A stretch of 64,000 bases of DNA, from assembly GCA_022457155.1 (NCBI GenBank), contig JAJGOT010000308.1, forward strand, positions 672,001 through 736,000, given 5' to 3'. Under the pieces are notes generated by a model. It was not told the origin of the DNA. It did not search any database and saw only the letters and a list, made by a program, of their open reading frames with translations. Below, in pieces: positions 27,828-42,472 of this stretch (the stretch's first letter is position 1; the number at the start of each line of letters is the position of its first letter). The translations under genes and the position numbers were made by a program. This DNA is from Cladopsammia gracilis (taxonomy: Eukaryota > Cnidaria > Anthozoa > Scleractinia > Dendrophylliidae).

Positions 27828-27832
27828 ATTTT

Positions 27833-27857
27833 AGCCCCAAAATGGGGCTTTTTTTTA
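27833..27857 (+). terminator. Hairpin plus T-run terminator
   Basis: AGCCCC-AAAAT-GGGGCT (27833-27849) followed by a run of T. The sequence after the T-run (ATGCTGAAATTTATAA) is nearly the same after the hairpin at 33189 and in the tail of the gene ending at 33916, so a common 3' module is used. Confidence 0.7.
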
Positions 27858-27911
27858 TGCTGAAATTTATAACTTTTGCGGAAAAAAAAAATAAATAAAG
27901 TTAAAAAAAAA

Positions 27912-27929
27912 TATTTATATATAATAAAA
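27912..27929 (+). promoter_or_regulatory. Early-type leader of polB
   Basis: TATTTATATATAATAAAA ends five bases before the ATG of the DNA polymerase gene and is identical to the leaders at 27277 and 33972. Confidence 0.65.
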
Positions 27930-27933
27930 AAGG

Positions 27934-30900
27934 ATGTCTTCATCTGATTTAAATAACTTATCATATGATGAACTTATGAAAATAGCAAAAAAGGAAACTA
28001 AAGAAAATAGAAAAATTAAAGAAGAACGAAAGAAACAAAAATTGATTGAATATATTAAAAATAAAAAAGAAGAAAATGATAAATTAAAAAAGAAACCAAT
28101 AAAACTTAAACCTAAATCAAAACCTAAACCAAAGAAAATTAAAACATTTGATGATTATTTTCTTGAATGTATAAAAAATAAAAAGATTCCAAAAGATACT
28201 CCAAAATATTTAAAGAAAGCACTTGAAAGAGCAATGAAAGAATACCACGTTGGAATTAAATTTGAAAAATCTGCTCTTGATAATTTTGCTGAAAAATATG
28301 TAATTGAAGGAAAACCAAAAATCTTTCCTAAAGATTATTTTAAAGAAAAAGCTTCACAATTAAAAGATTTTCTTAGAAATCATAGAAATATTAAAGTTAG
28401 ATTTATATTAGTTTGTTTAATGGAAAGAATGGAGCATGAAGATAAAATTAAAGATAAAGCTTATTTTCATTCTGAAACACATATTAATCTTGAAGGTATA
28501 GATGCTAAAGAGATTTTAACTAAAATAATTCTAGAAATTCTTAGTAAAATTTTAATTTATCAAAGAAATGGTTCAGGTTGGTATTTTAAAGAGATTTTAT
28601 CATTAGAAATTCATACTATAAAATATAAACCTTTGAAAGGATCTTCATATATTAAACTTCCTGGTTTTATTTCAAGTAAAAAAGCTATAATAAATTTAGA
28701 AAATAAAAAAGATAATAAATGTTTCATGTGGTGTATTTTAAGATATTTACATCCACATGAAAAAGATCCTCAAAGAATTTCAAATTTAAAAAAATACAAA
28801 AACGATCTTAATTTTAAAGGTATAGATTTTCCATTTAAATTAACAGATATAAAAAGGTTTGAGAATCAAAACCCGAATCTCCCAGGAATTAATGTTTTTT
28901 CAATTAATGAATATAATAAATTTTATCCTTTAAGAATTAATGACAAAGATTGTAATAATACAATAGATTTATTTCTTTATGAAGACACCGGAAAAACACA
29001 TTATACACTTATTAAAAATTTTTCAAGATTAATCAGTTCACAAGTTAGTAAAAATACTTCAATAAAAAAATATTTTTGTAAAAAATGTTTATCTCATTTT
29101 ACAAAAGAGGATCTCCTAAAGAAACACATTATATTTTGTTCTAATAATGAGACAGCTGCAGTAAAAATGCCTCCTAAAAACTCATTTTTATTTTTTAAAA
29201 ATTATAATAAAAAATTACCTTTACCATTTGTTATTTATGCTGATTTTGAATGTTTTACAAAACCAATGAATAATTGTGAACCGGATCCAAATTATTCTTA
29301 TTCAATGGAATATCAAAAACATGAACCTTGTGGATTTTGTATTTATATTAAATCTTTTGATTTTGATGATAGAGTTGATAGAATATTTAAAATTAATCCA
29401 ATTATTTATACAAAGAAAAAAGAAGATGAAAATATTGCATTAGTTTTTGTAAAAGAATTAAAAAAAATTGCAAAACAAATTAATTTTAGTTTTTATAATT
29501 TCCCACAAATGATGATATTTACAGACTCTGATAAAATAGAGTTTAATAAATCAACAAATTGCCATATTTGTGAAAAACCTTTTATTGAAGGAGACTTTAA
29601 GAATAAAAAAGTTAGAGATCATTGTCATTTTACTGGTAAGTTTAGAGGAGCTGCTCATAATAATTGTAATATTTTTTGTAAAAAACCTAGAGTACTTCCT
29701 GTAATATTTCATAATCTTCAAGGTTATGATTCACATCTTTTTATTAAAGAATTAGCAAAAATGAAAGGAGATTTAACTTTTATTCCTAAAACAGAAGAGA
29801 AATATATATCATTTTCTAAGAAAATTAAAGTAGCTGAATTTATGAGAGAAGATGAAAAAATTACAATTAATTTTGAATTACGTTTTATTGATTCATTTAA
29901 ATTTTTATTAACTTCCCTTTCAGGTCTTGTAAATAATTTGCAACCTGATGATTTTTATTCTATAAAAAGTTATTATGATAAAAATATAGAATTATTAACA
30001 AGAAAAGGAGTATATCCTTATGATTATGTAAATTCTTTAGAAAAATTCAAAGAAACACAATTACCACCAAAAGAAGAATTTTATTCAAAATTAAATGATG
30101 AAGACATAACTGATGAAGACTACACCCATGCACAAAAGGTTTGGTCACAATTTAATTGTAAAACTATTAAAGATTACCATGATTTATATCTTAAAACAGA
30201 TGTATTACTTTTAGCTGATGTGTTTGAAAACTTTCGTAAAACTTGTTTGAAGTATTATAATTTAGATCCAGCTCATTATTATACATCTCCTGGATTAGCT
30301 TGGGATGCATGTCTTAAAGAAACAGAACAAAGACTTGAATTATTACATGATTATGATATGTTAATGATGTTTGATCAAGGAATTAGAGGTGGTATAACTC
30401 ATATATCAAAAAGATATTCAGAAGCAAACAATAAATATATGAAAAATTATAATCCAAATGAAGAATCAAAATTTATTACATATCTTGATGCTAATAATCT
30501 TTATGGTTGGTCAATGATACAAAAACTTCCAACTCATGGTTTTAAATGGATGAAAAATCTTACAAAAGAAAATGTAATTAAAATATTAGAAAAGAAAATT
30601 ACAAATATTGGTTATATTTTTGAAGTGGATCTTAAATATCCAAAAAAACTATGGAAAGAACATAATGATTATCCACTTGCTACAGAAAGATTAAAGTTTG
30701 GAACAGTAGAGAAACTTGTTGGATCTTTTTACCGTAAAAAGAATTATATAATACATTATAGAAATCTTAGACAATGTTTAGAATTAGGACTTGAACTTGA
30801 AAAAGTACACAGAGGAATATCATTTTATCAATCTGAATGGATGAAACCTTATATTGAAAAAAATACAGAATTAAGAAAACAATCTAAAAACTCTTTTGAA

Positions 30901-31680
30901 AAAGATTTTTTTAAATTAATGAATAATTCTGTATTTGGTAAAACAATTGAAAATATAAGAAAAAGACAAAATATACAATTAGTAAATAATAAGAAAAAGG
31001 CTATTAATTTGTCATCAAAACCTAATTTTGATCGATTAACAATATTTGATCAAAAATTAATTGCAGTTCATTTGAAAAAGACAGAAATATATTTTAATAA
31101 ACCTATTTATGTGGGACAAGCTGTTCTTGATTTGTCAAAATTTTATATGTATGATTTTCATTATAATTATATTAGAGAGAAGTATTCCAATAAAGCTGAA
31201 TTATTATTCACAGATACAGATTCATTAATGTATGAAATTCATACAGATGATTTTTATTATGATATAAGAAAAAACATCAAAAAAAAGTTTGATACAAGTG
31301 ATTATCCAGAAAATCATGAATCTGGAATTAAAACTGGAATTAATAAGAAAGTAATAGGAATGTTTAAAGATGAAGCTTGTGGAAAACAAATTACACATTT
31401 TGTTGGTCTAAGACCTAAGCTTTATTCTTTTAAAGTTGAAGACATTGAAGTAAAGAAATGTAAAGGAATTAAGAAAAATGTTATTAAAAGGGAAATAACA
31501 TTTGAAGATTTCAAGAAATGTTTATTCTCAGAAAAAGAAGAAATGAGAACAATGAATATAATAAGAAGTAAAGAACATAAAATTTACTCGATGAAAATGA
31601 ATAAAGTAGCATTATCTGCAAATGACGATAAAAGACTGATTTGTAAAAATAAAATTAATACTTTAGCTTTGAGAAAATAA
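27934..31680 (+). CDS. polB: Protein-primed family B DNA polymerase
   Basis: A 1248-residue polymerase that should replicate the element from its ends with a protein primer. The N-terminal ~400 residues start with lysine-rich helices. Exonuclease motif I is YADFEC (D437, E439). A zinc-binding insert like endonuclease VII/HNH follows (C543-HIC, then RDHCHF). ExoII is HNLQGYDSHLF (D599). The TPR/palm region includes LYLKTDVLLLADVF. Polymerase motif A is YLDANNLYGW (D852), motif B is KLMNNSVFGKT (K994), and motif C is FTDTDSLMYE (D1094, D1096). All catalytic positions are present and the frame is uninterrupted. Length fits Polinton polymerases. The early-type leader precedes it and a co-oriented small gene follows 23 bases after the stop. 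Confidence 0.95.
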   Translation: MSSSDLNNLSYDELMKIAKKETKENRKIKEERKKQKLIEYIKNKKEENDKLKKKPIKLKPKSKPKPKKIKTFDDYFLECIKNKKIPKDTPKYLKKALERAMKEYHVGIKFEKSALDNFAEKYVIEGKPKIFPKDYFKEKASQLKDFLRNHRNIKVRFILVCLMERMEHEDKIKDKAYFHSETHINLEGIDAKEILTKIILEILSKILIYQRNGSGWYFKEILSLEIHTIKYKPLKGSSYIKLPGFISSKKAIINLENKKDNKCFMWCILRYLHPHEKDPQRISNLKKYKNDLNFKGIDFPFKLTDIKRFENQNPNLPGINVFSINEYNKFYPLRINDKDCNNTIDLFLYEDTGKTHYTLIKNFSRLISSQVSKNTSIKKYFCKKCLSHFTKEDLLKKHIIFCSNNETAAVKMPPKNSFLFFKNYNKKLPLPFVIYADFECFTKPMNNCEPDPNYSYSMEYQKHEPCGFCIYIKSFDFDDRVDRIFKINPIIYTKKKEDENIALVFVKELKKIAKQINFSFYNFPQMMIFTDSDKIEFNKSTNCHICEKPFIEGDFKNKKVRDHCHFTGKFRGAAHNNCNIFCKKPRVLPVIFHNLQGYDSHLFIKELAKMKGDLTFIPKTEEKYISFSKKIKVAEFMREDEKITINFELRFIDSFKFLLTSLSGLVNNLQPDDFYSIKSYYDKNIELLTRKGVYPYDYVNSLEKFKETQLPPKEEFYSKLNDEDITDEDYTHAQKVWSQFNCKTIKDYHDLYLKTDVLLLADVFENFRKTCLKYYNLDPAHYYTSPGLAWDACLKETEQRLELLHDYDMLMMFDQGIRGGITHISKRYSEANNKYMKNYNPNEESKFITYLDANNLYGWSMIQKLPTHGFKWMKNLTKENVIKILEKKITNIGYIFEVDLKYPKKLWKEHNDYPLATERLKFGTVEKLVGSFYRKKNYIIHYRNLRQCLELGLELEKVHRGISFYQSEWMKPYIEKNTELRKQSKNSFEKDFFKLMNNSVFGKTIENIRKRQNIQLVNNKKKAINLSSKPNFDRLTIFDQKLIAVHLKKTEIYFNKPIYVGQAVLDLSKFYMYDFHYNYIREKYSNKAELLFTDTDSLMYEIHTDDFYYDIRKNIKKKFDTSDYPENHESGIKTGINKKVIGMFKDEACGKQITHFVGLRPKLYSFKVEDIEVKKCKGIKKNVIKREITFEDFKKCLFSEKEEMRTMNIIRSKEHKIYSMKMNKVALSANDDKRLICKNKINTLALRK

Positions 31681-31703
31681 AAAAAATAATATTATAAAAT
31701 AAA

Positions 31704-31844
31704 ATGATTAATTTCACAAAAAAAGATATTTTATTAATATATTTAAGAAGACTTTTTTTAATAGAAGATTTTGATGAAGAAATTAGATATAAAAGGTATA
31801 AAAGAGAAAATTTAAAAAATTTAAAAAAAAATAAAAGATTATAA
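31704..31844 (+). CDS. Small 46-residue protein, overlaps next gene
   Basis: ATG 31704 opens a 46-codon frame (MINFTKKDILLIYLRRLFLI at the start, basic tail NLKKNKRL). Its stop overlaps the next start codon in the arrangement TAATG (31842-31846). Such an overlap is typical of coupled genes in compact viral genomes. The N-terminal half is amphipathic or hydrophobic. No family is recognised; it could also be a leader controlling the zinc-ribbon gene. Confidence 0.5.
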   Translation: MINFTKKDILLIYLRRLFLIEDFDEEIRYKRYKRENLKNLKKNKRL

Positions 31845-32392
31845 TGTATACAGAAGAAGAGATTAAATTATATTCTTCCATATTAAAATCTTATGAAAAA
31901 AGTAAAATTAAAAAAAAGAAAAAAAGAAATATTCCAATATATGAAAAATGCAAACATGAGAATAAAGAAATTATTGATTATGCTGAAGTTTGTTGTGATT
32001 GTGGTCTTCAAATTCAAAGAATATTAAATTATGATGTTAATATATCTGATTGGGAAAGATGTTGTTATAGAAAAAAATCAGTATACCAAAGAAAGTATTT
32101 TTTTAAGAAAAAGATCAATGAAATACAAAAAACTTTTGATATAAAAAATGATGATATTTCTAAGATAAATGAAATACTTTATAAAATTGATAATGCAAAT
32201 TTAATTAAGAAAGTAAATACACAATTTGAAAGAAAGAGAATCATTAATATCACTTTTATTATAAAAAAGATTTTAATTATTCTTGGATATAGTAATGTTG
32301 ATGAATTATTACCACTAAAACTTTCAGAAGAAACAAAAGCTTTTTATGAAGAATGGTGGGAATTAGTTAAAAAAGAAATTATAATATCATAA
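31844..32392 (+). CDS. Zinc-ribbon transcription factor, VLTF3/TFIIB-like
   Basis: A 182-residue protein with a zinc ribbon formed by C36-x-H38 and C50-xx-C53-G (CDCGLQIQRIL). After a linker comes YQRKYFFKKKINEIQ, which resembles the Y-x-R-x-x-H/F-F block that follows the zinc ribbon in poxvirus-type late transcription factor 3 (VLTF3) proteins of large DNA viruses. The C-terminal part is helical. A role in switching on late virion genes would fit the second promoter class seen here. TFIIB-type origin is the alternative. It starts within the stop codon of the preceding small gene. Confidence 0.55.
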   Translation: MYTEEEIKLYSSILKSYEKSKIKKKKKRNIPIYEKCKHENKEIIDYAEVCCDCGLQIQRILNYDVNISDWERCCYRKKSVYQRKYFFKKKINEIQKTFDIKNDDISKINEILYKIDNANLIKKVNTQFERKRIINITFIIKKILIILGYSNVDELLPLKLSEETKAFYEEWWELVKKEIIIS

Positions 32393-32456
32393 TTTTAATT
32401 AAGTTTTGAAATTAAGTTGTAGCAGAAAAAAAAAATAATAATTTAAAAAAAAATAT

Positions 32457-32477
32457 ATTTATATAAAATAAAAATGA
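32457..32477 (+). promoter_or_regulatory. Early-type leader variant
   Basis: TATTTATATAAAATAAAA followed by the ATG of the first paralogue gene; one-base variant of the leader at 27277. Confidence 0.55.
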
Positions 32478-33181
32478 ATTCTTCACAAAGCAAATCTGTT
32501 AATACGCAATACAAAGCAATTCCTATCACTCTTTTTGGTGTAACATATTTTGATAAAATATTATATGGTAAAATGTTTATGATTGATCTTCATTTTCACA
32601 ATATATATATTAATTATCGAAGATTTTATGAGTTAAGAAAGAGAGAAATTGAAGATAAAATTATATCAGATAATAGTTTAAAAATAAAAGATATATTAAG
32701 ATATTTTAAAAAAAGTCAAAAAAGTAATGAAATAGACAAACAAAAAAGAAAATATTTGAATAGAATAAGAAAAGAAATAAAATATATTAGAAAATATTTA
32801 ATGAAAGAAGAATATAAAAAAAAAGTTTTATATTGTATAGAAGGTGATGATATAAAATTCGGAATTTTAAATTATGAAAAGTTAATAGATTTTACATATT
32901 CTAATTATTTAAGTTTTAGCATAATTAAAAGTATTATGTTAAGACAAAAAAAATATAGAAAATCATTATATCGTGAAGATATTTATAAATGTCAGGGAAA
33001 ACTTTCATTGAGAAAAGATAATAAAGAAATAATTAAAGAAATAAGAAAAATTGTTAAAGATTTTAAAAGTTATTTTAAAGAAAAAGATGTTATTATTCAT
33101 TGGCAAACCGATTATTCTGATTCTGATTCTGATTCTGATAGAGTTAGTGTTAGTGATAGTCAAGTTAATTATATTTATTAA
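32474..33181 (+). CDS. Unknown early protein, paralogue 1
   Basis: A 235-residue protein sharing with the next gene the block TQYKAIPITLFGV.Y.DKIL and the following KMFMIDLHFHNIY. A second conserved region is KYLNRIRKEIKYIRKYLMK. Between and after these the two diverge. The C-terminus here is an acidic repeat of Asp-Ser (DSDSDSDSD) followed by VNYIY. The family is not recognised; the block order suggests a compact N-terminal domain plus a helical one. It has its own leader and a terminator hairpin downstream. Confidence 0.75.
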   Translation: MNSSQSKSVNTQYKAIPITLFGVTYFDKILYGKMFMIDLHFHNIYINYRRFYELRKREIEDKIISDNSLKIKDILRYFKKSQKSNEIDKQKRKYLNRIRKEIKYIRKYLMKEEYKKKVLYCIEGDDIKFGILNYEKLIDFTYSNYLSFSIIKSIMLRQKKYRKSLYREDIYKCQGKLSLRKDNKEIIKEIRKIVKDFKSYFKEKDVIIHWQTDYSDSDSDSDRVSVSDSQVNYIY

Positions 33182-33188
33182 TAATTAT

Positions 33189-33212
33189 ATCCCTTTTTTA
33201 GGGATTTTTTTT
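33189..33212 (+). terminator. Hairpin plus T-run terminator
   Basis: ATCCC-TTTTTTA-GGGAT then a T-run and ATGCCGAAATTTATAA, like the site at 27833. Confidence 0.65.
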
Positions 33213-33259
33213 ATGCCGAAATTTATAATTTTATTTAAAAAAATTTTATTTATAATAAA

Positions 33260-33916
33260 ATGACCACTACGCAATACAAAGCAATTCCAATCACTCTTTT
33301 TGGTGTTAAATATTATGATAAAATATTATATGGTAAAATGTTTATGATTGATTTACATTTTCATAATATTTATAGAAATTATCGAAAATATAAAGAAATA
33401 ATAAAAAAAGAGTATATAGATTCAAATAAATCTGATATGAAAGATTTTGAGAGAGAATATAGAGAAGGTAAAAAAAATCTAAAAATTAAAGAGAAATATT
33501 TGAAAAGAATAAGAAAAGAAATTAATTATATGAAAGAATATTTAATGAAAAAAGAATATTTAAATAAAGTTTTTTATAAATTTGAAGATGAGAGATGTTC
33601 AGATTCTCATTCTCATTCTTCTTTAAAATCTGATGGAGATTTTACATTTTCTTATATAACATATAAAAAAAATTTCAGAATTGTTAATTATAGAGTATTA
33701 TTATTTTTTTTATGTAATAATTTTTTTAATTTTAATGATTATAGAAATTTTTTTATACCAGAAATATATGCAGATTTACCTTTTGATGTATTATATAATG
33801 ATTTGAATATAAGACATTTTATATTTAAAACAAAAGAAGAAGAAATAGAAAAAGAAATTAAAAAAATGATAGAAGAATTTGAATTTTATTTTTTTAGGGA
33901 TTTTTTTTTATACTGA
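33260..33916 (+). CDS. Unknown early protein, paralogue 2
   Basis: A 218-residue paralogue of the gene at 32474. The first ~40 residues are almost identical (TQYKAIPITLFGVKYYDKIL and KMFMIDLHFHNIYRNYRK), and KYLKRIRKEINYMKEYLMKK recurs. The rest is divergent, with a Ser/His-rich insert near residue 115. The tail FRDFFLY is read from what looks like a decayed terminator (TTTTTTTAGGGATTTTTT) and its stop lies in the conserved ACTGAAATTTA downstream motif, so the frame has run through the ancestral 3' module. Tandem duplication with divergence is inferred. Confidence 0.7.
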   Translation: MTTTQYKAIPITLFGVKYYDKILYGKMFMIDLHFHNIYRNYRKYKEIIKKEYIDSNKSDMKDFEREYREGKKNLKIKEKYLKRIRKEINYMKEYLMKKEYLNKVFYKFEDERCSDSHSHSSLKSDGDFTFSYITYKKNFRIVNYRVLLFFLCNNFFNFNDYRNFFIPEIYADLPFDVLYNDLNIRHFIFKTKEEEIEKEIKKMIEEFEFYFFRDFFLY

Positions 33917-33971
33917 AATTTACAATTAAAAAAAAATAAAATTTAAAAAAAATAAAATTTAAAAAAAAAAA

Positions 33972-33991
33972 TATTTATATATAATAAAATG
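33972..33991 (+). promoter_or_regulatory. Early-type leader of SSB-like gene
   Basis: TATTTATATATAATAAAATG, identical to the motif at 27277-27296, ending in the start codon. Confidence 0.65.
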
Positions 33992-34735
33992 CAACTAACA
34001 AGTTTCGAAAACATTTCTAAAGAAAATCTAATTTTTAACGAAGCTAAACAATATAAAGTCAAGAATTCTAAGATGAAATATCATCGTATTAAAATCGAAA
34101 CAACTTATCCTAATGGTTCTAAAGGTCCTCTTATAATTGAAACACCTTTACTTTTTAGTTTTGGTGTATCTGAAAGAAAGAATCAAGAATCACAAGAATT
34201 AGTTGGTTATACTATTCCTATTTGTTTATGGGAAAAAGAAAAAGAACCAACAAAAGAAGAAAAAAAGTTTTTTAAAACATTAGAAAATATCCAACAACTT
34301 TGTTTTAATCATCTTGAAGATACAATTGGTGTTGAAGAATCACAAAATTTATCACAATTATTATATTATAAAAATAAAGAAATTACTGATAAAAAAGGAA
34401 GAACTAAAAAAGTAATTGATGATAGTGTTTCACCAGTTTTATATGCAAAACTTATATATTCAGAAAAATCTAATAAAATTCTATCTTTGTTTAAAACAAA
34501 AGGAAATAAAAATGTTGATCCATTTGAATATCTTAATCAATATTGTAAAGTAAAATTAGCTTTGATAATTGAGAGTATTTATATTTCCAAATTAGTAAAA
34601 TCTATTCAAGTTAAAGTTCATGAAGTTTATGTTAGACCATTGAAACCAAGAGAATCATTATTAATGATTAAAGAAGAAAGTGATGACGAAGTCGATGAAG
34701 AAAATGAAGAAGGTGATTCACAGGATTTGTTTTAA
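33989..34735 (+). CDS. Single-stranded DNA-binding protein candidate
   Basis: A 248-residue protein with a beta-rich N-terminal part (YHRIKIETTYPNGS, then PLIIETPLLFSFGVSERK) and a helical middle (KKFFKTLENIQQLCFNHL). A second beta segment follows (ALIIESIYIS...KVHEVYVRPL). The last ~20 residues are strongly acidic and end in Phe, as in bacterial SSB and T7 gp2.5, where such a tail recruits partners. Proteins with this layout in large DNA viruses are annotated as DNA-binding. The degraded homologue at 19464-20084 also keeps an acidic tail. It has the early-type leader and a strong terminator. Function is inferred from layout and tail. Confidence 0.55.
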   Translation: MQLTSFENISKENLIFNEAKQYKVKNSKMKYHRIKIETTYPNGSKGPLIIETPLLFSFGVSERKNQESQELVGYTIPICLWEKEKEPTKEEKKFFKTLENIQQLCFNHLEDTIGVEESQNLSQLLYYKNKEITDKKGRTKKVIDDSVSPVLYAKLIYSEKSNKILSLFKTKGNKNVDPFEYLNQYCKVKLALIIESIYISKLVKSIQVKVHEVYVRPLKPRESLLMIKEESDDEVDEENEEGDSQDLF

Positions 34736-34751
34736 ACTGAAATAAAGTATT

Positions 34752-34774
34752 AGCCCTTTTTAGGGCTTTTTTTT
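34752..34774 (+). terminator. Hairpin plus T-run terminator
   Basis: AGCCC-TTTTT-AGGGCT followed by eight T, 16 bases after the stop of the SSB-like gene. Confidence 0.7.
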
Positions 34775-34790
34775 ATGTCGCTTGAAACAA

Positions 34791-34817
34791 TTTTTAATAC
34801 TACAATAGTATTAAAAA
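34791..34817. terminator. Bidirectional hairpin between convergent genes
   Basis: TTTTTAATACTA-CAA-TAGTATTAAAAA, a perfect 12-bp palindrome with T-runs on both strands, overlapping the integrase stop codon. It could terminate transcripts arriving from either side. Confidence 0.55.
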
Positions 34818-35779
34818 TCTTTTAAATCACTCAAAGGAATCCACGAATTAAACTTGTCAGGATATCCACTCCATTTAACTAAAGCTAACTTTTTCTTGGT
34901 GTCTCGTTTCAATACTTTCTCAATTCTATATATTTCTTGTTTTGTTTTTTGTAACTCTTTTTCATAAAAAGATCCTTTTACTTCTTCACCTATTAAATCA
35001 ACAATTTTATAGGTGATAGGTTTTGTATTTAATATTTCATTAACCACAAATACTTCCTCTGTCCAGTTAGGAGTATATCCTTTATCAAATACAGGTCTCT
35101 TATATTTTGATATACGAACGAAATCTCCAACTTTAAATTTTATTTTTCCAGGTTTCAAATAAATTAAATCTGAATATAAATTAGCATAAACTTTTTCTTC
35201 GTTTTCTTTTTTACTAGCTTGAATTGGAGTCATTTTAATACTAGAATGTCTTGTTTTATTATAATCATTAACTAATTTATCAAGGATGTTCCAATAAACA
35301 GTATTGTTATTTACACTAAACATCTTAAACATTCTGGTTTTCATTGTTTTATTCCATCTCTCAACAATGCTTGATTTCTCTTCATTCTCTGTATGATATA
35401 ATTTGATTTTATTCTTTTCAAGGACCTTCTTAAAATGTTTACTGATAAATTCAGAACCTTTATCTGTCCAAAGCATTTTTGGTTTACGTTTACTTTTTTT
35501 AAATATATCATCAAATGCTTTACTAACACTTTCAGTCTTTTTGTTTTTCAATGGTTCAATCCATCCATATTTACTAAAAATATCTATTACCATCAGTAAA
35601 TAATTTATTCCTTTATTCCATTTACTAAACTTTTGCATTTCAACCAAATCTGCAGCCCAGATTTCATCAATCCCATTTGATATTACAGTTCTCTTTGAAA
35701 AATTTCTAGTGATTGGTTTATGTAATTCATCGGCTAATTGTTGAGTCCAATCACTATTATTACTCAACGCCGCTTTACG
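34811..35779 (-). CDS. Retroviral-type integrase with chromodomain (-1 frame)
   Basis: An rve-family DDE integrase that would insert the element and make the 6-bp duplication. Counting from codon 35767: catalytic D40 (WAADL), D102 (WTDKGSEF), E136 (SIVERWNK); C-terminal chromodomain about residues 280-315 (VKWSGYPDKFNSWIPLSDL). The frame opens only after a TAA upstream and contains no ATG before the catalytic core; it overlaps the phospholipase gene in the -1 frame. A perfect A AAA AAC slippery site and pseudoknot lie in the overlap, so translation by -1 frameshift from the phospholipase frame is the likeliest route, starting at the codon beginning 35779. No separate leader motif precedes it. 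Confidence 0.9.
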   Translation of the reverse strand, partial: RKAALSNNSDWTQQLADELHKPITRNFSKRTVISNGIDEIWAADLVEMQKFSKWNKGINYLLMVIDIFSKYGWIEPLKNKKTESVSKAFDDIFKKSKRKPKMLWTDKGSEFISKHFKKVLEKNKIKLYHTENEEKSSIVERWNKTMKTRMFKMFSVNNNTVYWNILDKLVNDYNKTRHSSIKMTPIQASKKENEEKVYANLYSDLIYLKPGKIKFKVGDFVRISKYKRPVFDKGYTPNWTEEVFVVNEILNTKPITYKIVDLIGEEVKGSFYEKELQKTKQEIYRIEKVLKRDTKKKLALVKWSGYPDKFNSWIPLSDLKDF

Positions 35780-35785
35780 TTTTTT
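35707..35785 (-). promoter_or_regulatory. -1 frameshift signal with pseudoknot (phospholipase to integrase)
   Basis: On the minus strand the heptamer A AAA AAC (35785-35779) is in phase with the phospholipase codons ACA AAA AAC. A 10-base spacer follows, then stem 1 of 7 bp (GTTGAGT, 35768-35762, with ACTCAAC, 35746-35740). The stem-1 loop contains TAGTGATTGG (35756-35747), which pairs perfectly with CCAATCACTA (35716-35707) to give a 10-bp stem 2. Loops are 5 and 23 bases. The zero-frame stop TGA (35766-35764) lies within stem 1. This has the parts of a retroviral or coronaviral -1 frameshift element; the spacer is slightly long. Confidence 0.8.
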
Positions 35786-36450
35786 GTCTTCTTTGGTAAA
35801 CCCAAACCAAGTTTCTGTTTAGTATTTATAATAAATCTCGCTGTTTGTCCCCATTTCGGTATTTCACCGTATGGAATCAGATCTAAAGATTTAACCATTT
35901 GTCTATCACATTCATTCTTATTTTTTCCCATATCATAACATATATCATGATAAGCAGCAATTTCATCTACTTTATTATATGGTTTAACCATCCATTCTAA
36001 TACTTCACCTGTTTCAGGATCATATCTTAATTGTTCATTCAAAGGGTTATACGGACCCATATACTTGTATTCTCCAGGAGTCCAACCACCTTTTGGTTTT
36101 GGCAATTTTCCAATGAGGCTATGAATATCTACACTACCTCCTTGAAAGTCTAAATCTTTTCTATTTGTTTTATATTTTAATTTTGGTCTTATTTTAGTAC
36201 TTAGTTGATCCATCATATCTGAAGTTGTTTTTTGTAAAAATGGTTTTGCGTGGTCTAAAGCATAATCTAATGCTTTTTTTTGCATGTTTTTATTTCTCAT
36301 TAATTCACTTGCTCCATATCGTCCCATTTCAACTGTTTTTTTACCTAACCAAGGTAAAGCATGAGTTAAACCTGTTAATGCTAATTCGCCAAAGCCTTCT
36401 CCTTCTTGTGTTTTGAGAGGAGATGTTTGTGAAGAAGAAGGCTTTTTTAG
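35764..36450 (-). CDS. Phospholipase A2 (parvovirus/adintovirus type), -1 frame
   Basis: Counting from the internal ATG at 36327, residues 85-134 match the viral phospholipase A2 domain: YMGPYNPL (calcium loop) and the catalytic helix YNKVDEIAAYHDICYD with H127-D128 and D132. In parvoviruses and adintoviruses this domain opens endosomal membranes during entry. Upstream of that ATG the frame stays open with a conserved-looking hydrophobic stretch (ALTGLTHALPWLGKKTVE) back to the slippery site at 36456-36450, so the natural product probably starts in the zinc-ribbon frame (ATG 36599). A QGG-S sequence near residue 63 may be a protease site. The C-terminus is basic. At the 3' end the frame overlaps integrase. 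Confidence 0.85.
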   Translation of the reverse strand, partial: LKKPSSSQTSPLKTQEGEGFGELALTGLTHALPWLGKKTVEMGRYGASELMRNKNMQKKALDYALDHAKPFLQKTTSDMMDQLSTKIRPKLKYKTNRKDLDFQGGSVDIHSLIGKLPKPKGGWTPGEYKYMGPYNPLNEQLRYDPETGEVLEWMVKPYNKVDEIAAYHDICYDMGKNKNECDRQMVKSLDLIPYGEIPKWGQTARFIINTKQKLGLGLPKKTKNVKRR

Positions 36451-36456
36451 TTTCCC
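36391..36456 (-). promoter_or_regulatory. -1 frameshift signal with hairpin (zinc ribbon to phospholipase)
   Basis: The minus strand has G GGA AAC (36456-36450) in phase with the zinc-ribbon codons CAG GGA AAC, immediately followed by its stop TAA (36449-36447). This heptamer is the one known from simian D-type retrovirus gag-pro. A 15-bp stem with one G-U pair follows: AAAGCCTTCTTCTTC (36445-36431) with GAAGGAGAAGGCTTT (36405-36391), loop 25 bases, spacer 4 to 7 bases. A -1 slip enters exactly the open phospholipase frame. Confidence 0.82.
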
Positions 36457-36599
36457 TGTTTCTTAACAAAACGTGTTTTTTTTATTCCACAAGAAGCACA
36501 TTTACAGAAAAACATTAATCTTCCATTTTTTGTTGTTTTATATCCACTAGGTTCTACACAATCAGTTTGTTTTTTTTCTTTCACACAATAAGATTTCAT
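36447..36599 (-). CDS. Small zinc-ribbon protein (DUF5679-like)
   Basis: ATG 36599 encodes 50 residues, MKSYCVKEKK at the start, then TTKNGRLMFFCKCASCGIKK and TRFVKKQGN. Two Cys pairs (C5 and C14 region; C32-x-C34-xx-C37) form a putative zinc ribbon like the DUF5679 proteins of iridoviruses, asfarviruses and other large DNA viruses. The stop is placed directly after a -1 slippery heptamer, so the protein may be made alone or as the N-terminus of a zinc ribbon-phospholipase fusion. The virion-gene leader TATATAATCTTA lies just upstream. Confidence 0.75.
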   Translation of the reverse strand: MKSYCVKEKKQTDCVEPSGYKTTKNGRLMFFCKCASCGIKKTRFVKKQGN

Positions 36600-36606
36600 T
36601 TTATAT

Positions 36607-36618
36607 TAAGATTATATA
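36607..36618 (-). promoter_or_regulatory. Virion-gene leader motif
   Basis: TATATAATCTTA on the minus strand, 8 bases before the zinc-ribbon ATG. Related copies lie before three other virion genes (38132, 39455, 39860). The region is shared with the divergent gene starting at 36636, so it may act in both directions. Confidence 0.6.
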
Positions 36619-36635
36619 AATATAAAATAAAAAAA

Positions 36636-36833
36636 ATGGAAGAAAGTAGATCTGTATTTATACAAAAAGAAATAAAAAACTTAAATGAAATGATAGAATG
36701 CATATTTGATCATATTGTTTATACTAATTTTAATGAAGATAAAAGATTATTAAAGATAATTACTTTAGTTTTGAAAATAAAGAGAAAACTTGGAATATTA
36801 AAAGGATTGATAAAGGGAAGTATATATATTTGA
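36636..36833 (+). CDS. Small 65-residue helical protein
   Basis: From ATG 36636 (preceded by AAATAAAAAAA): MEESRSVFIQKEIKNLNEMI at the start, a lysine-rich amphipathic helix (LLKIITLVLKIKRKLGILKG) and a short hydrophobic end. The ATG further upstream lies in the promoter of the divergent gene, so the shorter start is preferred. It is the only plus-strand gene within the minus-strand virion block, and ends at a bidirectional hairpin. Function unknown. Confidence 0.5.
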   Translation: MEESRSVFIQKEIKNLNEMIECIFDHIVYTNFNEDKRLLKIITLVLKIKRKLGILKGLIKGSIYI

Positions 36834-36834
36834 T

Positions 36835-36863
36835 TTTTTTATAACAATCATTGTTATAAAAAA
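36835..36863. terminator. Bidirectional hairpin between convergent genes
   Basis: TTTTTTATAACAA-TCA-TTGTTATAAAAAA, 13-bp perfect arms with T-runs on both strands. It lies between the stop of the 65-residue gene and that of the protease gene. Confidence 0.6.
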
Positions 36864-36865
36864 GA

Positions 36866-37432
36866 TTATTCAAAGTATTTTTTAATAAATCTTTCATTAA
36901 ACATAGTATCACTTAAACTGAATGGTTTTAATATATCATAAAAATTTTTTTTCATTGACCATTGATGAAGAAAATAAAGACAATAATAACCACAAAGAAC
37001 ACTTTTAATATTTTGATATTGACTTGAGTTGTAAATTATAGGTTTACCATTACTTTTAAATTCTTCAGGATAACCCATTCCAAAACTATCAAAATACCAT
37101 ATAAATTTATTATCATGACTTTTCACACAACAAACCCAATGAGTTCCAACGTTTTCATATGAATCAAGATTTATTATACATGGACTATGATTAATAGACA
37201 TTTTTTCATCTCTTGAATATATACCTTTGAAATTTGGAATTTTTAAATATTTTATCCATTTCATTAAATCAATATTACTTAATGGTTTGTTTATGAATTT
37301 TGGTTTTATAATATTGTTCCGAGAATTGGAATGCTGTTGAATGGACTGTCCTTCCCTAATAAAAGACCTTTTCCTTTTTTCGTAGTTTTTTTTGACTTTT
37401 TTTTTCCCATACCAATAGTATTTTTTCCCCAT
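36866..37432 (-). CDS. PRO: Adenovirus-type cysteine protease
   Basis: C5-family (Ulp1-like) maturation protease. Counting from ATG 37432: H98 (GTHWVCC), D115 (WYFDSFG), Q138/Q140 and C147 (VLCGYYC), the His-Asp-Cys order of adenovirus protease. The domain proper begins near SNIDLMKWI (residue 52). The first ~42 residues overlap the C-terminal coding region of the upstream virion protein in the -1 frame and are Lys-rich, probably not part of the enzyme. There is no virion-gene leader before it. A-rich slippery heptamers (G GGA AAA, A AAA AAA) lie in the overlap, so it may be made by frameshift from the upstream gene, or from the internal ATG. Confidence 0.9.
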   Translation of the reverse strand: MGKKYYWYGKKKVKKNYEKRKRSFIREGQSIQQHSNSRNNIIKPKFINKPLSNIDLMKWIKYLKIPNFKGIYSRDEKMSINHSPCIINLDSYENVGTHWVCCVKSHDNKFIWYFDSFGMGYPEEFKSNGKPIIYNSSQYQNIKSVLCGYYCLYFLHQWSMKKNFYDILKPFSLSDTMFNERFIKKYFE

Positions 37433-38118
37433 TGACCTATAAAAGGTGGGGGTGGTTCATACATTCCTATTCTTGGTGCTCCTTTTCCTTTTGGTCTACC
37501 TACTCTTGGTGCTCCTTTTCCAGTAATTTTTTTAAAAGCTTCAATAGCAAGAGGTATACCAATACTAGCTAGTAATGTACCTAATAATCCACCAGATTGT
37601 TTTTTAGTTGGTTTTATCACTAATTTACCTCCAGATTGAAGAGCGTTTAATATGTCTTGTTTTTGTTTATTTGTAAGTAGATTTTTATTTTCAATGAGTT
37701 TTTTTATTTTATCTTGTGGTATTAAAAAACCACCTATTTGACCATTACCACTTATCTTTTTAACAATTTGACTTGCTCCTTCACTTGCTAAACCAGCAAG
37801 AGCTGATAATCCAAGTGTTTTAGCTAAAGTTGGTGCAAAAGTACGAGCTAATGGAATAATACTACTAAATAAACTTCCACCCTGTCTCATTACTTTTCTA
37901 ATTTGTGTTTTTGATATCTTGATGTCTGTTCCTTTTCCTAATGATTTAGCCTTTTTAATTTTGTTAATTTGATTAGTTGTTAATAGTAATTCATCATTTC
38001 CACTTGTTTGATTATTTTTTAATCTAAATGTTAAAGGAGTGTTTGTTTTATATGCTTTTGCAAGTTTCTTTTTTTGATTGTCAGATAAATTTATTTTGTA
38101 TGGATGATAAGTTGTCAT
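37306..38118 (-). CDS. Membrane-active virion protein, pVI/pX-like
   Basis: A 270-residue basic, Gly-rich protein. The N-terminal third is polar. Hydrophobic or amphipathic helices follow at about 85-115 (IIPLARTFAPTLAKTLGLSA) and 175-195 (LLGTLLASIGIPLAIEAF), each preceded by a Gly-Gly (RQGGSLF, QSGGLLG; also QIGGFLI). The C-terminus is K/G/P-rich and ends DSPFNSIPILGTIL. Gly-Gly sites ahead of amphipathic helices recall the protease-released lytic peptides of adenovirus pVI and pX; its overlap with the protease gene fits. Exact adenoviral consensus (M/I/L-x-G-G) is not met. The name is an analogy. Confidence 0.6.
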   Translation of the reverse strand: MTTYHPYKINLSDNQKKKLAKAYKTNTPLTFRLKNNQTSGNDELLLTTNQINKIKKAKSLGKGTDIKISKTQIRKVMRQGGSLFSSIIPLARTFAPTLAKTLGLSALAGLASEGASQIVKKISGNGQIGGFLIPQDKIKKLIENKNLLTNKQKQDILNALQSGGKLVIKPTKKQSGGLLGTLLASIGIPLAIEAFKKITGKGAPRVGRPKGKGAPRIGMYEPPPPFIGQWGKNTIGMGKKKSKKTTKKGKGLLLGKDSPFNSIPILGTIL

Positions 38119-38131
38119 TTTAATTTTATTA

Positions 38132-38143
38132 TTAGATTATATA
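38132..38143 (-). promoter_or_regulatory. Virion-gene leader motif
   Basis: TATATAATCTAA on the minus strand 14 bases before ATG 38118. Confidence 0.6.
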
Positions 38144-38156
38144 AATTTTTTACATT

Positions 38157-39443
38157 TTATACAATTACTAATTCATTTCCAATTTTATCAATTTTCACCA
38201 TTTCTTCATATAAAACTATAGCATGAACATTAAAGTCAGCAGTTGCATTTCTGCTTAATGTATATCTGAATATTAATTGTTTAGGATCTCTAGTGATTTT
38301 TTCTGCTTGATATGTAAGATTAAAATATATCAAACCATATAGATAATTATAATTAGCTAAATTAAGTTGTGTTCCTGTATTATAATCATTTTTCCTCATT
38401 GCGTATGACATGACATCATTAAATATTCTTACTTTACCTTCACTATCATATTCTGTTTCTGGATAAAATACTCCATTTCCATATTCCAATCTACAGTTTT
38501 GTAAGTGAGAATTATCATCAGCTGCATTCAATTTGTAAGTATTCATAAGATAAGGATTATCTTCAGCTTGATCATTATTAGGTGGGGCTGATCTTTTAAA
38601 ATAAACAAAAATATGTTTTATATTATCAATACTACTTGATATTTGAAAAAATCCTGATGATCGTGTAGGAGCTGATGATTCATACATTTCCCTTAAATAT
38701 TTCCATTTTGTTTCTTTCATGAATGAACTAACAAATTTATCATATAAAGAATCTTTAGGTGTTAATTTTGGTACCCAAAGCAAAAACCTATTAACAACAA
38801 CTCTTCCAGCACCAGTACCATTAGCCATATGAATTAATTCACCATCATTTTGAAGCTCAATATTGAATTGTAATTGCATAGGTACAAGCATCTTATCTTC
38901 AAGTTCTTCAAAGAAAGAAAAACGATTTAATGGTATAATAGTATTAATATCTTTAGAACCACCACTACCATCATTTGCATTCGCTTGAGATTGTATTCGC
39001 CTAGCTTCAAACCCTGAATTAGTATTAGCTGTTGTACCATCAGTATCCAAATACCAGAAACTGTTTTTAGCTACTGATCTGCTATAATCATCAGAATATT
39101 CTAACAAATTTTTAACAAAAGTAACTTTATGTAAATTATTAGTATCATAAATTATTTTACCTGCAGATTTAAGCATGATATGATTAATTAAACTGTGTGC
39201 TCCATTTATAACTGTAATTCTATCAGCTGCAGCATAACCAGCACCATTTGCTAATTTTTGTAACTGAAATTGTACTTCAAAATATGCGTTATACCAATCG
39301 TAAAATGCTGATCTATCATTAATTGTGAATTTATAACCAGTTTTAACTTGGTGTTGATCATTAGCTGGAGTTCTAATCACATCATCTAATTGAAATCTTA
39401 TCATTTCATTTCTTTGTAAATATTCACTTGATCTGAAAGCCAT
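38157..39443 (-). CDS. MCP: Major capsid protein (double jelly-roll candidate)
   Basis: A 428-residue, beta-rich, nearly Lys/Arg-balanced protein starting MAFRSSEYLQRNEMIRFQLD. It lacks TM segments. Features: FTINDRSAFYDWYNAYFEV, INGAHSLINHIML, and the loop-strand blocks LNRFSFFEELEDKMLVPMQL and RFLLWVPKLTPKDSLY. Size, position next to core and penton genes and presence as the most conserved virion gene (very close to the older copy at 46935) fit the Polinton/adintovirus hexon-like capsid protein. I cannot prove the fold without structure prediction. Virion-gene leader at 39455. Confidence 0.75.
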   Translation of the reverse strand: MAFRSSEYLQRNEMIRFQLDDVIRTPANDQHQVKTGYKFTINDRSAFYDWYNAYFEVQFQLQKLANGAGYAAADRITVINGAHSLINHIMLKSAGKIIYDTNNLHKVTFVKNLLEYSDDYSRSVAKNSFWYLDTDGTTANTNSGFEARRIQSQANANDGSGGSKDINTIIPLNRFSFFEELEDKMLVPMQLQFNIELQNDGELIHMANGTGAGRVVVNRFLLWVPKLTPKDSLYDKFVSSFMKETKWKYLREMYESSAPTRSSGFFQISSSIDNIKHIFVYFKRSAPPNNDQAEDNPYLMNTYKLNAADDNSHLQNCRLEYGNGVFYPETEYDSEGKVRIFNDVMSYAMRKNDYNTGTQLNLANYNYLYGLIYFNLTYQAEKITRDPKQLIFRYTLSRNATADFNVHAIVLYEEMVKIDKIGNELVIV

Positions 39444-39454
39444 ATTTTATTTTA

Positions 39455-39466
39455 TAAGATTATATA
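39455..39466 (-). promoter_or_regulatory. Virion-gene leader motif
   Basis: TATATAATCTTA on the minus strand, 12 bases upstream of the capsid gene ATG. Confidence 0.6.
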
Positions 39467-39471
39467 ATTTT

Positions 39472-39849
39472 TTATTTTTTTATTTTTATTCCATTACCAG
39501 ATATTAATCTATTTAATATCATGTCAGTATTTTCTTCTTGTTTTTTAACTGTTTTTGGTGTTGATTGTCTTGTTTTTTTAGGGGTATTTATTCTCATATT
39601 ACCTAATTTTTTCATTATTAAATCACCAGATTTTTCAGAAATCTTTTTACCTAATCTTTCTCCAGTATGAGAAATCCCTGCTTCTAATGCTTTTTTAGCT
39701 ACAGGTTTAGCAAATTTTTTGAAAACAGTTGACAAAACACTTCTCATTGGTTTTAAAATATTATCAACAACCATACCATTACCTTTATGTTTATACATAA
39801 ATTTACCCAATTTTGGATTATAAAAACGAGAAAATTCGTAAGATTTCAT
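39472..39849 (-). CDS. Small basic core/virion protein
   Basis: A 125-residue Lys/Arg-rich protein: MKSYEFSRFYNPKLGKFMYK at the start, then an amphipathic helical part (VLSTVFKKFAKPVAKKALEA, then GERLGKKISEKSGDLIMKKL) and a basic tail. The older copy at 46535 has the same architecture. Position between capsid and penton genes and its composition suggest a DNA-binding core or membrane-active peptide precursor like adenovirus pX or pVII. The leader motif TTAGATTTATAT (plus strand, 39860-39871) lies upstream. Confidence 0.65.
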   Translation of the reverse strand: MKSYEFSRFYNPKLGKFMYKHKGNGMVVDNILKPMRSVLSTVFKKFAKPVAKKALEAGISHTGERLGKKISEKSGDLIMKKLGNMRINTPKKTRQSTPKTVKKQEENTDMILNRLISGNGIKIKK

Positions 39850-39859
39850 TTTTTTATTA

Positions 39860-39871
39860 TTAGATTTATAT
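39860..39871 (-). promoter_or_regulatory. Virion-gene leader motif, variant
   Basis: ATATAAATCTAA on the minus strand, 11 bases before ATG 39849; one substitution away from the other three. It overlaps the stop region of the penton gene, so the core gene has its own start site. Confidence 0.5.
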
Positions 39872-40627
39872 TATTTTTTTCAACAATAATGAAAAAGATG
39901 TATCCGCTCCATTGAGGTCAATTAATCTTCTTTTTCCATCAGTAATATAAATTCTTATACTATTAATAGTATTTTTATTTACTGGATTATAAGTAATTCT
40001 TTTTGGTTCAAGAGTAAAACTAAATGATGGTCTTAAAACAGAAGTGGAAAAACTATAAATAATATCACTATCTTGACCATCTACAAGTGAATCATTAATT
40101 AAATCACAATGTATATTTAAAATATCTGTATCTTGACTTAAATTTGGAACTCTAGGACCCACATTTATTTTATCTTTTATAATTTTCTTATCAAATCCTA
40201 ATAATTCATAAAAATTACTTTGCGTAAAATCCAGTTGATAATTTTCTTTCAATCTTATTGTTACTCTAAAAGTTGTTTCATCAAAAATAATACTAATTGG
40301 ATATTCATCTTCTTTTCCAGATTGTTTTATTACAGTTATATGTTTAATAAATGCATCGATATAAACATAATTCCAAACCCCACCTGGAAAACTGATATCT
40401 TTAAATGTTCTACCATTATCAGAACTGTATCTAATTAATTGATTTTTATAATCAGCATTTATATTAAACCATGTAAAACTCATATTAATAACACGATTAA
40501 GACCAATTACATATTGTGAGTTGTTGTCTAAAACAATTGGTTTACTAAATTTTGTTGTGAAATTTTCAGGTTTGTTACCATTTTCTGTTTTAACAGAATA
40601 TGATGATAATACTATTTCTCTATCCAT
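39866..40627 (-). CDS. Penton-like minor capsid protein
   Basis: A 253-residue beta-rich protein beginning MDREIVLSSYSVKTENG. Conserved with the older split copy: YVIGLNRVINMSFTWFNIN, GPRVPNLSQDTDILNIHCDL, YSFSTSVLRPSFSFTLEP, and a C-terminal IRIYITDGKRRLIDLNG. Length and gene neighbourhood match the single jelly-roll penton of Polintons, which sits at capsid vertices. It is followed by the core gene on the same strand. No virion-type leader is obvious upstream, only an AT-rich stretch. Confidence 0.75.
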   Translation of the reverse strand: MDREIVLSSYSVKTENGNKPENFTTKFSKPIVLDNNSQYVIGLNRVINMSFTWFNINADYKNQLIRYSSDNGRTFKDISFPGGVWNYVYIDAFIKHITVIKQSGKEDEYPISIIFDETTFRVTIRLKENYQLDFTQSNFYELLGFDKKIIKDKINVGPRVPNLSQDTDILNIHCDLINDSLVDGQDSDIIYSFSTSVLRPSFSFTLEPKRITYNPVNKNTINSIRIYITDGKRRLIDLNGADTSFSLLLKKII

Positions 40628-40644
40628 TTTATAATAATAATATA

Positions 40645-41760: not shown

Positions 41761-41816
41761 TTTTATTATTATGAGTTTATTATTTTTTTTTTAAATTATC
41801 TATGATTTATAATAAA

Positions 41817-42455
41817 ATGAAAATACCAAACTATGATCTAGATGATGACTTAATTTCTAATTTTAAGCAATTACATGATTTCATGCCAAATCAAAATTTC
41901 AGAATGCTTATTTGTGGTCCTTCAGGTTCTGGAAAAACAAATGTTTTACTAGATATGATTCTTAGGTTATTATATTATGATAAAATATATTTATATGCTA
42001 AAAATTTAGAACAACCAAAATATAAGTATTTATTAAGAAAATTTAAAAAATCAATTAATAAAGAAGCAGGTTATGAAGTTATAGAACCTAGTAATGATGA
42101 AATTTTACCAGTTACTGAATTAACAGATGATAACCAAAAAGTAATCATATTTGATGATTTTGTTTGTGAAAAGAATCAAAAACCACTGATTGATTATTTT
42201 ATTAATGGAAGGCATAAAAATTGTAGTGTTATTTATCTTTCACAAAGTTATTACAAAACTCCAAAAGATATAAGACTAAATTGTTCTCATTTTTGTATTT
42301 ATGAATTTCCAAGTAATAATGAAATTTCTATGATATGTCGTGAAAATAATGTTGATAAAAAGAAATATAGATTAGCTACAAAAGATCCTTATTCTTTTTT
42401 ATATATTGATAAACCAAAGAAAGAAATATTTAAAAATTTTAATGATATTATATAA
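41817..42455 (+). CDS. A32/FtsK-HerA-like DNA packaging ATPase
   Basis: A 212-residue P-loop ATPase that should pump DNA into capsids. Walker A is GPSGSGKT (residues 34-41), Walker B is VIIFDDF (about 109-115). A sensor-like YLSQSYYKTPKDIRLNC follows, typical of the A32 family of Polintons, poxviruses and relatives. The start at 41817 is chosen because MKIPNYD is conserved in the older copy; an in-frame ATG at 41802 would add five residues. It is divergent from the coiled-coil gene with 56 bases between starts. Confidence 0.93.
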   Translation: MKIPNYDLDDDLISNFKQLHDFMPNQNFRMLICGPSGSGKTNVLLDMILRLLYYDKIYLYAKNLEQPKYKYLLRKFKKSINKEAGYEVIEPSNDEILPVTELTDDNQKVIIFDDFVCEKNQKPLIDYFINGRHKNCSVIYLSQSYYKTPKDIRLNCSHFCIYEFPSNNEISMICRENNVDKKKYRLATKDPYSFLYIDKPKKEIFKNFNDII

Positions 42456-42472
42456 ATTATATAATAAAAAAA

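Follow-up and report, generated by a model that had tools for sequence, protein, structure and literature searches.

Candidate tandem -1 ribosomal frameshift signals join zinc-ribbon, phospholipase A2 and integrase frames in a Polinton of Cladopsammia gracilis

Retroviral gag-pro-pol units of the mouse mammary tumour virus (MMTV) and human T-lymphotropic virus (HTLV) type are translated by two successive -1 shifts at canonical slippery heptamers, A AAA AAC among them, with hairpins or pseudoknots as stimulators and with an rve integrase within the last and rarest product. The MMTV gag-pro pseudoknot is treated in PMC5009743, as far as the excerpt of that paper goes. For DNA viruses, the excerpted text of PMC11071296 suggests, by KnotInFrame, single -1 shifts in the Penton and Hexon-adenain genes of adintoviruses, and this is the nearest precedent for the locus described here. 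That locus lies in a Polinton of the scleractinian Cladopsammia gracilis, within a stretch of 64,000 nucleotides (the window; positions 672,001 to 736,000 of the forward strand of contig JAJGOT010000308.1, assembly GCA_022457155.1), where minus-strand frames encode in turn a zinc ribbon, a phospholipase A2 (PLA2) and an integrase (INT). An earlier note on this DNA had proposed that these frames are linked by two programmed -1 frameshifts; the observation itself is confirmed here, and the reading of the junctions as frameshift signals is supported with high confidence. Sequence comparison and structure prediction point, with a probability that we put at roughly 0.92, to a single expression unit that would be translated through tandem programmed -1 ribosomal frameshifting.

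Most ribosomes would produce the 50-aa zinc ribbon and halt at the stop codon directly after G GGA AAC; a fraction, stalled by the downstream hairpin, would move one base back into the PLA2 frame and yield a zinc ribbon-PLA2 protein; and a sub-fraction of these would slip again at A AAA AAC, ahead of a pseudoknot, and yield zinc ribbon-PLA2-integrase. The abundance of the products would fall in that order, with integrase the rarest, and every integrase molecule would have zinc ribbon and PLA2 as its N-terminal part. Slipping at both sites, and its rates, we infer.

The three frames (Table 1) follow each other in successive -1 phases, as had been claimed, and sit 3' of the protease open reading frame (ORF) on the minus strand in the order zinc ribbon, PLA2, INT. 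Pfam scores were 5.4e-8 for DUF5679, 3.5e-7 for Phospholip_A2_4, 4.3e-12 for rve and 2.4e-7 for Chromo; Gag and reverse transcriptase are missing from the unit, in which the Pfam matches are to zinc-ribbon, PLA2 and integrase families. The HDxCY motif of PLA2 was kept in a 27-row alignment (H in at least 90% of rows; D, C and Y in all). Codon reading of both junctions agreed with the in-phase heptamers proposed earlier: the zinc-ribbon frame reads CAG GGA AAC TAA at junction 1, and the PLA2 frame reads ACA AAA AAC GTA AAG CGG CGT TGA at junction 2, with the PLA2 stop four codons past the AAC of the heptamer. An in-phase heptamer within the frame overlap, the mark of a programmed -1 frameshift, is present at both window junctions. 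Because in-phase X XXY YYZ heptamers are common in this AT-rich element (99 per 5,733 codons), the motif alone is weak evidence. By hand count, the three heptamers AAAAAAC, GGGAAAC and TTTAAAC account for 5 in-phase occurrences in those 5,733 codons. Two of the five lie within the short overlaps of the frames, of about 4 and about 17 codons, an outcome with a chance of about 5e-5 by hand multiplication.

Predicted structures follow both heptamers. The hairpin of junction 1 folds at -22.6 kcal/mol (z of -4.55 and -5.39 in two windows), and none of 200 dinucleotide shuffles equalled it. At junction 2, a two-stem scan found a pseudoknot with loops of 5, 0 and 23 nt and a spacer of 10 nt, and none of 200 mononucleotide shuffles was as strong; folded without pseudoknots, the same stretch was moderate only (z of -2.01, -1.20 and -2.70). 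The strong downstream structures described earlier, a 15-bp hairpin and a 7-bp plus 10-bp pseudoknot, are borne out by these shuffles. Furthermore, the PLA2 frame has its first ATG at about residue 46, and the INT frame has no ATG ahead of its first catalytic Asp.

Scoring of 150 of the 2,551 candidates from the animal's own genome (877.8 Mb) gave at least 151 matches to PLA2. Ninety loci (L001-L090) make up the same-family set, and the diverged set consists of the 22 loci that remain of L091-L115 once L094, L095 and L111, which are of the window family, are taken out. By script, 57 of the 90 same-family loci were open throughout, from an ATG-initiated zinc ribbon through GGGAAAC, a -1 step to PLA2, AAAAAAC and a -1 step to INT; therefore, the arrangement is not that of one damaged copy. 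The step from zinc ribbon to PLA2 was -1 in 79 of 89 measurable loci, +1 in 7 and 0 in 3, and L004 and L005 have a zinc-ribbon poly-A run that is shorter by one. The step from PLA2 to INT, judged by the first INT match, was -1 in 89 of 89, and an extra A at junction 2 of L025 places most of INT in PLA2's own frame. The loop of the first hairpin varies in length (10, 16, 18, 22, 25 and 28 nt, and others) and the stem is kept. The earlier claim that the downstream frames lack a well-placed ATG holds across the copies, with the first INT ATG past the first catalytic Asp in all 57 open loci and the first PLA2 ATG at residue 41-46 (48 of the 57 open loci shown).

On a FastTree tree of 29 PLA2 stretches, with distances summed by hand, the diverged families are separated from the window family by as much as about 0.8 substitutions per site and from one another by at most about 1.1. 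The -1 step of junction 1 was readable by eye in 15 of the 22 diverged loci (L091, L092, L093, L097, L100, L103, L105, L106, L108, L109, L110, L112, L113, L114 and L115), and that of junction 2 in 19 of the 22.

Junction 1 could be placed in all but four (L059, L066, L072 and L111) of the 115 loci. By its letters the heptamer is GGGAAAC in 98 of the 111 so covered, GTCAAAC in 10, and TTTAAAC (L091), AGGAAAC (L093) and AAAAAAC (L102) in one each, so that 100 of 111 are canonical and 11 non-canonical, with L102 canonical in letters and out of phase. A stop triplet comes next in the heptamer's phase in 110 of the 111, a count that takes the phase of the heptamer and not that of the zinc ribbon. 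The stems stand in the same place with family-specific letters, for example GCCCTCAC/GTGAGGGC, GCCAGTCA/TGGCTGGC and GCCCTCAC/GTGGGGGC, and the predicted structures leave spacers of mostly 3-7 nt.

At junction 2, the pseudoknot scan was applied to 36 unique downstream stretches from 109 loci, with at most 2 nt allowed between stems, and 28 of the 36 were stronger than all 60 of their mononucleotide shuffles; these counts are of sequences and not of independent events. The predicted first (S1) and second (S2) stems are rebuilt from other letters in other families. The window type pairs GTTGAGT/ACTCAAC and TAGTGATTGG/CCAATCACTA, L097 pairs AGATTTTGAGT/GCTCAAAATCT and GACTGG/CCAGTC, and L098 pairs AGATTTTGAGT/ACTCAAAATCT and GGCTGG/CCAGCC, with the 3' arm of S2 placed 4 nt further 5'. 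The corresponding stems are GAGCTTTTGAGT/ACTCAAAAGCTC and TGACTGG/CCAGTCA in L106, AGGTTTCGA/TCGAAGCCT and CGGATTGG/CCAATCCG in L108, and AGATTTTGAG/CTCAAAATCT and CGGCTGG/CCAGCCG in L115. Spacers to these predicted structures are mostly 5-10 nt. The second heptamer has changed as well in one copy, to GGGAAAC in L102.

In 109 loci, all but L083, L095, L099, L100, L106 and L112 of the 115, the stem arms could be delimited, which gave 15 distinct arm sets. When the 3' arms of S1 were re-dealt among 14 arm sets (L102 excluded), the 121 of 140 paired cells observed compared with a mean of 112.1, and none of 20,000 deals reached 121. Changes on both sides of a pair occur at pairs 2, 4 and 6 of S1 and at pairs 2, 3 and 6 of S2. 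In L096, L104, L107, L108 and L109, TTG-CAA has become TCG-CGA within a conserved stretch, at the cost of two amino-acid changes and with the pair kept. For four of these loci (L096, L104, L107 and L109) the second stem that the scan found beside S1 was short, and 1-2 of 60 shuffles did as well; in their arms, S1 pairs at 9 of 10 positions and S2 at 8 in a row. Taken together, these results indicate that site and predicted structure are conserved with compensatory change; heptamers, stems and frame offsets are kept in relatives, in line with the two successive shifts proposed earlier.

These comparisons bear on two other ways in which the downstream frames might be expressed. INT or PLA2 could start by itself at a non-AUG codon or by re-initiation, and a TTG (Leu) just past heptamer 2 is a candidate start: it is kept in several diverged loci and in nearly all of the junction 2 stretches shown for the window family (L064 has TTC), and for 109 of 120 listed INT homologues a rough pattern puts an M at the corresponding position, as a bacterial-style gene caller would assign it to a TTG. 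However, this TTG lies within S1, and its replacement by TCG in the five loci named above accompanies the change of CAA to CGA, so that pairing explains its conservation. Re-initiation moreover accounts for no heptamer, and the 57 open loci have no ATG near the junctions (on the counts given above). We consider self-started translation very unlikely. A further alternative is that short introns are spliced out and the three frames thereby joined. GT does occur near both junctions in the window family, including AAC|GTAAAG at heptamer 2 (splice donors at junction 1 were listed for L001 only), but the GT at heptamer 2 is missing in the diverged families examined, which read AACGG, AACGC, AACAG or AACAT, and splicing predicts neither heptamers that abut a stop codon nor compensatory stems; this explanation, too, is very improbable.

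It should be noted that a number of results weigh against tandem frameshifting. In the window family, 33 of the 90 loci are not open throughout, the synonymous diversity of 0.022 is too low for a conservation test, and S1 begins 10 nt past the heptamer, a slightly long spacer. Among the diverged loci, L096, L098, L099, L101, L104 and L107 show damage either to the zinc ribbon or to the shifted frame, and L102 has zinc ribbon and PLA2 in one frame. The exceptions at junction 2 are L091, with one A too many, and L099 and L112, with deletions, and it is from its deletion that the one-frame PLA2-INT reading of L112 stems. Many loci with a -1 step are damaged elsewhere (a zinc-ribbon stop in L093, an early INT stop in L100), and L097 and L106 carry an indel after the shift. 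The predicted stem of junction 1 is weak in L108 and L109, where 127 and 87 of 200 mononucleotide shuffles were as good, and moderate in L097 (33 of 200), L099 (28 of 200) and L100 (13 of 200). L093 has AGGAAAC at this junction, and the AAAAAAC of L102 is out of phase in that copy. At junction 2 the heptamer is GGAAAAC in L106 and AGAAAAC in L115; L064, whose S1 is broken, and L096, L104, L107 and L109 reach only the level of 1-2 of 60 shuffles; and L102 (12 of 60) and L112 (14 of 60) are shuffle-like. The scan found no pseudoknot in L092, which has a long hairpin instead. At junction 2 of L102, a long hairpin seen by eye (GCCGCCGAGTA/TACTCGGCGGC) is comparable to that of L092; perhaps long hairpin and pseudoknot are two solutions for the same shift. 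Many outer cells of S2 are unpaired, and the re-dealing covered S1; covarying events are also fewer than cells, because some changes fall on one branch.

A further group of exceptions is the clade with the non-canonical G TCA AAC, again next to a stop triplet, at junction 1 (L096, L099, L100, L103, L104, L107, L108, L109, L112 and L115). In L104 the shifted frame meets a stop directly behind this site, and L096, L099 and L107 are damaged; the -1 step is readable in the other six of the ten (L100, L103, L108, L109, L112 and L115), and the stem GCCCTCAC/GTGGGGGC is present in six (L100, L103, L104, L107, L112 and L115). On G UCA AAC, slipping of the A-site codon AAC is possible, but re-pairing of the P-site UCA with GUC is poor. 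Weak shifting is known for the non-canonical G UUA AAC; by analogy, this clade may shift weakly as well, or may have lost the first shift. On the FastTree tree, L103 neighbours GGGAAAC copies, and its site may therefore have reverted or recombined.

The least probable explanation is that mutation or misassembly has broken the frames of a decaying element and that the heptamers are chance products of AT-rich sequence. In its favour are the frequency of in-phase XXXYYYZ (99 in 5,733 codons), the many damaged copies (33 of 90) and the differing poly-A length of the zinc ribbon in L004 and L005. Against it, each of the two -1 steps is found again in dozens of copies, and also in diverged families whose heptamers and stems are altered; the apparent one-frame zinc ribbon-PLA2 joints of L096 and L101 look like damage because the last cysteines of the zinc ribbon are broken there.

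Homologues beyond these loci were sought with 8,000 candidates scored for each protein, which gave at least 1,528 matches for PLA2 and at least 6,246 for INT, the best 120 of each being listed, together with 60 zinc-ribbon homologues. The zinc ribbons end exactly in GN in 26 of the 60, in KN in 3 and in GN with a short tail in 12; 3 of the 60 go on into the shifted reading (GKL/KKL), and 16 fall in none of these classes. Among the 120 PLA2 homologues listed, 89 have tails that contain KN or EN, 24 contain LN, VN or IN, and 7 neither; LN would fit TTA AAC. The earlier note had held that relatives with two of the genes in one frame would speak against its reading; of the refuting outcomes that it named, this alone appeared, and in part. 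An in-frame zinc ribbon opens 11 of the 120 listed PLA2 homologues (P0014, P0024, P0026, P0030, P0036, P0044, P0047, P0055, P0070, P0072 and P0118), a further point against frameshifting, and each of these may be a true fused gene or a damaged copy. PLA2 and INT share a frame in L025 and L112, as described above, and in six homologues (P0064, P0086, P0096, P0170, P0202 and P0227), each a single-member cluster; three one-frame PLA2-INT proteins show KKR at the joint, the residues expected from a slip. P0013 and P0047 are not from this genome, in which their best matches reach 81% and 74%, respectively; the other homologues may include own-genome copies. No relatives were confirmed in viral contigs (PLA2, INT and alignments of both) or in genome contigs (INT alignment).

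The unit resembles the gag-pro-pol of betaretroviruses and deltaretroviruses in its double -1 arrangement, canonical heptamers, stimulator structures and rve integrase in last place. It differs in that a Polinton is a double-stranded DNA transposon or virus and in that the unit consists of zinc ribbon and PLA2 ahead of integrase, without gag, protease or reverse transcriptase; it works like gag-pro-pol but is not one. Adintoviruses are alike in that -1 frameshifting is proposed in related DNA viruses; however, in the part of PMC11071296 that was available, each proposal is hypothetical, is for one shift in a capsid gene and comes with no comparative test, and none concerns zinc ribbon, PLA2 or integrase. 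With other Polinton/Maverick (adintovirus-like) elements the window element shares terminal inverted repeats (TIRs), a 6-bp duplication, a packaging ATPase, an rve integrase with chromodomain and a weak protease match, and PLA2 appears in the key of a figure that compares virophages, polintons and viruses (PMC3671162, in excerpt). In other Polintons, as far as the excerpted sources go, integrase is listed among the genes and no programmed frameshift is mentioned for it, whereas INT in the window has no usable start and would depend on two such shifts. The PLA2 belongs by Pfam (Phospholip_A2_4) to the same lipase family as that of the parvovirus VP1 unique region, which is important for entry according to the excerpt of PMC4061559; the parvovirus enzyme lies within a capsid protein, while that of the window lies between zinc ribbon and integrase. 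The earlier note knew of no such description in Polintons, and none of frameshifting between the zinc ribbon, PLA2 and integrase of Polintons was found among the matches listed from PubMed Central (PMC; titles and abstract openings), a scope that takes in neither Repbase nor subscription journals nor the first papers on Polintons and adintoviruses; nor did the titles and abstract openings of the listed PMC matches describe a double frameshift in any eukaryotic DNA transposon.

The host element is an intact Polinton with the hallmarks of the Polinton/Maverick group, namely long TIRs with a 6-bp target-site duplication, and an rve integrase with a packaging ATPase (Pox_A32, 5.4e-17). Its TIR arms are about 727 nt each and 97-99% complementary. 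The protease ORF (36866-37438) matched Peptidase_C5 (0.018) and Peptidase_C48 (0.098) only weakly, both below the Pfam cut-off. The ORF at 27928-31677, of 1250 aa and the size of a PolB, had Endonuclease_7 (1.1e-5) as its sole Pfam match, polymerase models being absent from the matches up to an E value of 0.1; motifs that we take by eye to be those of PolB are present. Neither ORF 38160-39446 nor ORF 39869-40648, considered for the double jelly-roll major capsid protein and the minor capsid protein, had a Pfam match. A 780-aa ORF (42446-44785) has a Phage_T7_tail-like match (4e-8) and is possibly a fibre protein. A cysteine-rich ORF (31841-32392; CCDCG...DWERCCYRKKSVYQRKYFF) has no Pfam match and is reminiscent, by eye, of the late transcription factors that large DNA viruses encode. 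The ORF that precedes the protease (37306-38136) has a tail, GKGLLLGKxSPFNxIPxxGxIL, that recurs fused to a zinc ribbon in the homologue P0297. This ORF also runs into the protease frame (36866-37456) with an overlap of about 150 nt, a -1 offset and G GGA AAA in phase, and the overlap was set aside as a third frameshift because the protease frame has an ATG there, close to this heptamer, and no strong structure follows (z of -1.45 and -0.40); it is comparable to the Hexon-adenain fusions suggested in the excerpt of PMC11071296. The intact Polinton is itself inserted within a gene (the EREIVLSS... ORF) of an older, disrupted Polinton, ORFs of which lie on both sides (about 20000-26530 and 46297-47700); no PLA2-INT part of the older element was seen among the listed ORFs.

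Table 1. Positions in the window of the frameshift unit, its candidate signals and the host element.
Feature	Positions	Strand	Remark
Zinc-ribbon ORF, 50 aa, DUF5679, own ATG, ends TAA	36447..36599	-	zero frame
PLA2 frame, parvovirus-type, Phospholip_A2_4	35764..36462	-	-1 relative to zinc ribbon
Integrase (INT) frame, rve core and C-terminal chromodomain	34811..35818	-	-1 relative to PLA2
Slippery heptamer 1, G GGA AAC, in phase	36450..36456	-	abuts TAA 36447-36449
15-bp hairpin, 25-nt loop, 4 nt 3' of heptamer 1	36391..36445	-	predicted
Slippery heptamer 2, A AAA AAC, in phase, near PLA2 3' end	35779..35785	-	
H-type pseudoknot after heptamer 2	35707..35768	-	predicted, two-stem scan
Pseudoknot S1, 7 bp	35768-35762 with 35746-35740	-	
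Pseudoknot S2, 10 bp	35756-35747 with 35716-35707	-	
Polinton element, 19,766 bp, intact	26531..46296		inverted arms and flanking target-site duplication
Target-site duplication ATCTCA, 6 bp	26525-26530 and 46297-46302		borders Polinton 26531-46296
Left terminal inverted repeat	26531..27257	+	arms of inverted-repeat comparison
Right terminal inverted repeat	45570..46296	-	arms of inverted-repeat comparison

If tandem frameshifting is confirmed, double shifting of the gag-pro-pol type would extend to a DNA transposon, and the start-less integrase beside a stray 50-aa ORF would be accounted for. It would also suggest translational control of integrase dose in these Polintons, and it would link integrase physically to a lipase of the virion-entry type. 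Our guess, based on the family of the PLA2 and on the logic of Gag-Pro-Pol, is that the fusions might be virion components. A wider scenario, which we hold to be possible though rather doubtful, is that the double frameshift arose independently of retroviruses in a lineage of eukaryotic double-stranded DNA transposon-viruses, as a means of dosing integrase and tying it to a nucleic-acid-binding zinc ribbon and an entry lipase, such that the rare fusion would be packaged, would aid escape from the endosome and would carry pre-made integrase to the nucleus with the DNA. Were the link true, the question of whether Polintons form infectious particles would become testable through junction peptides, and the diverged families within one genome offer a ready set for the comparison of frameshift signals.

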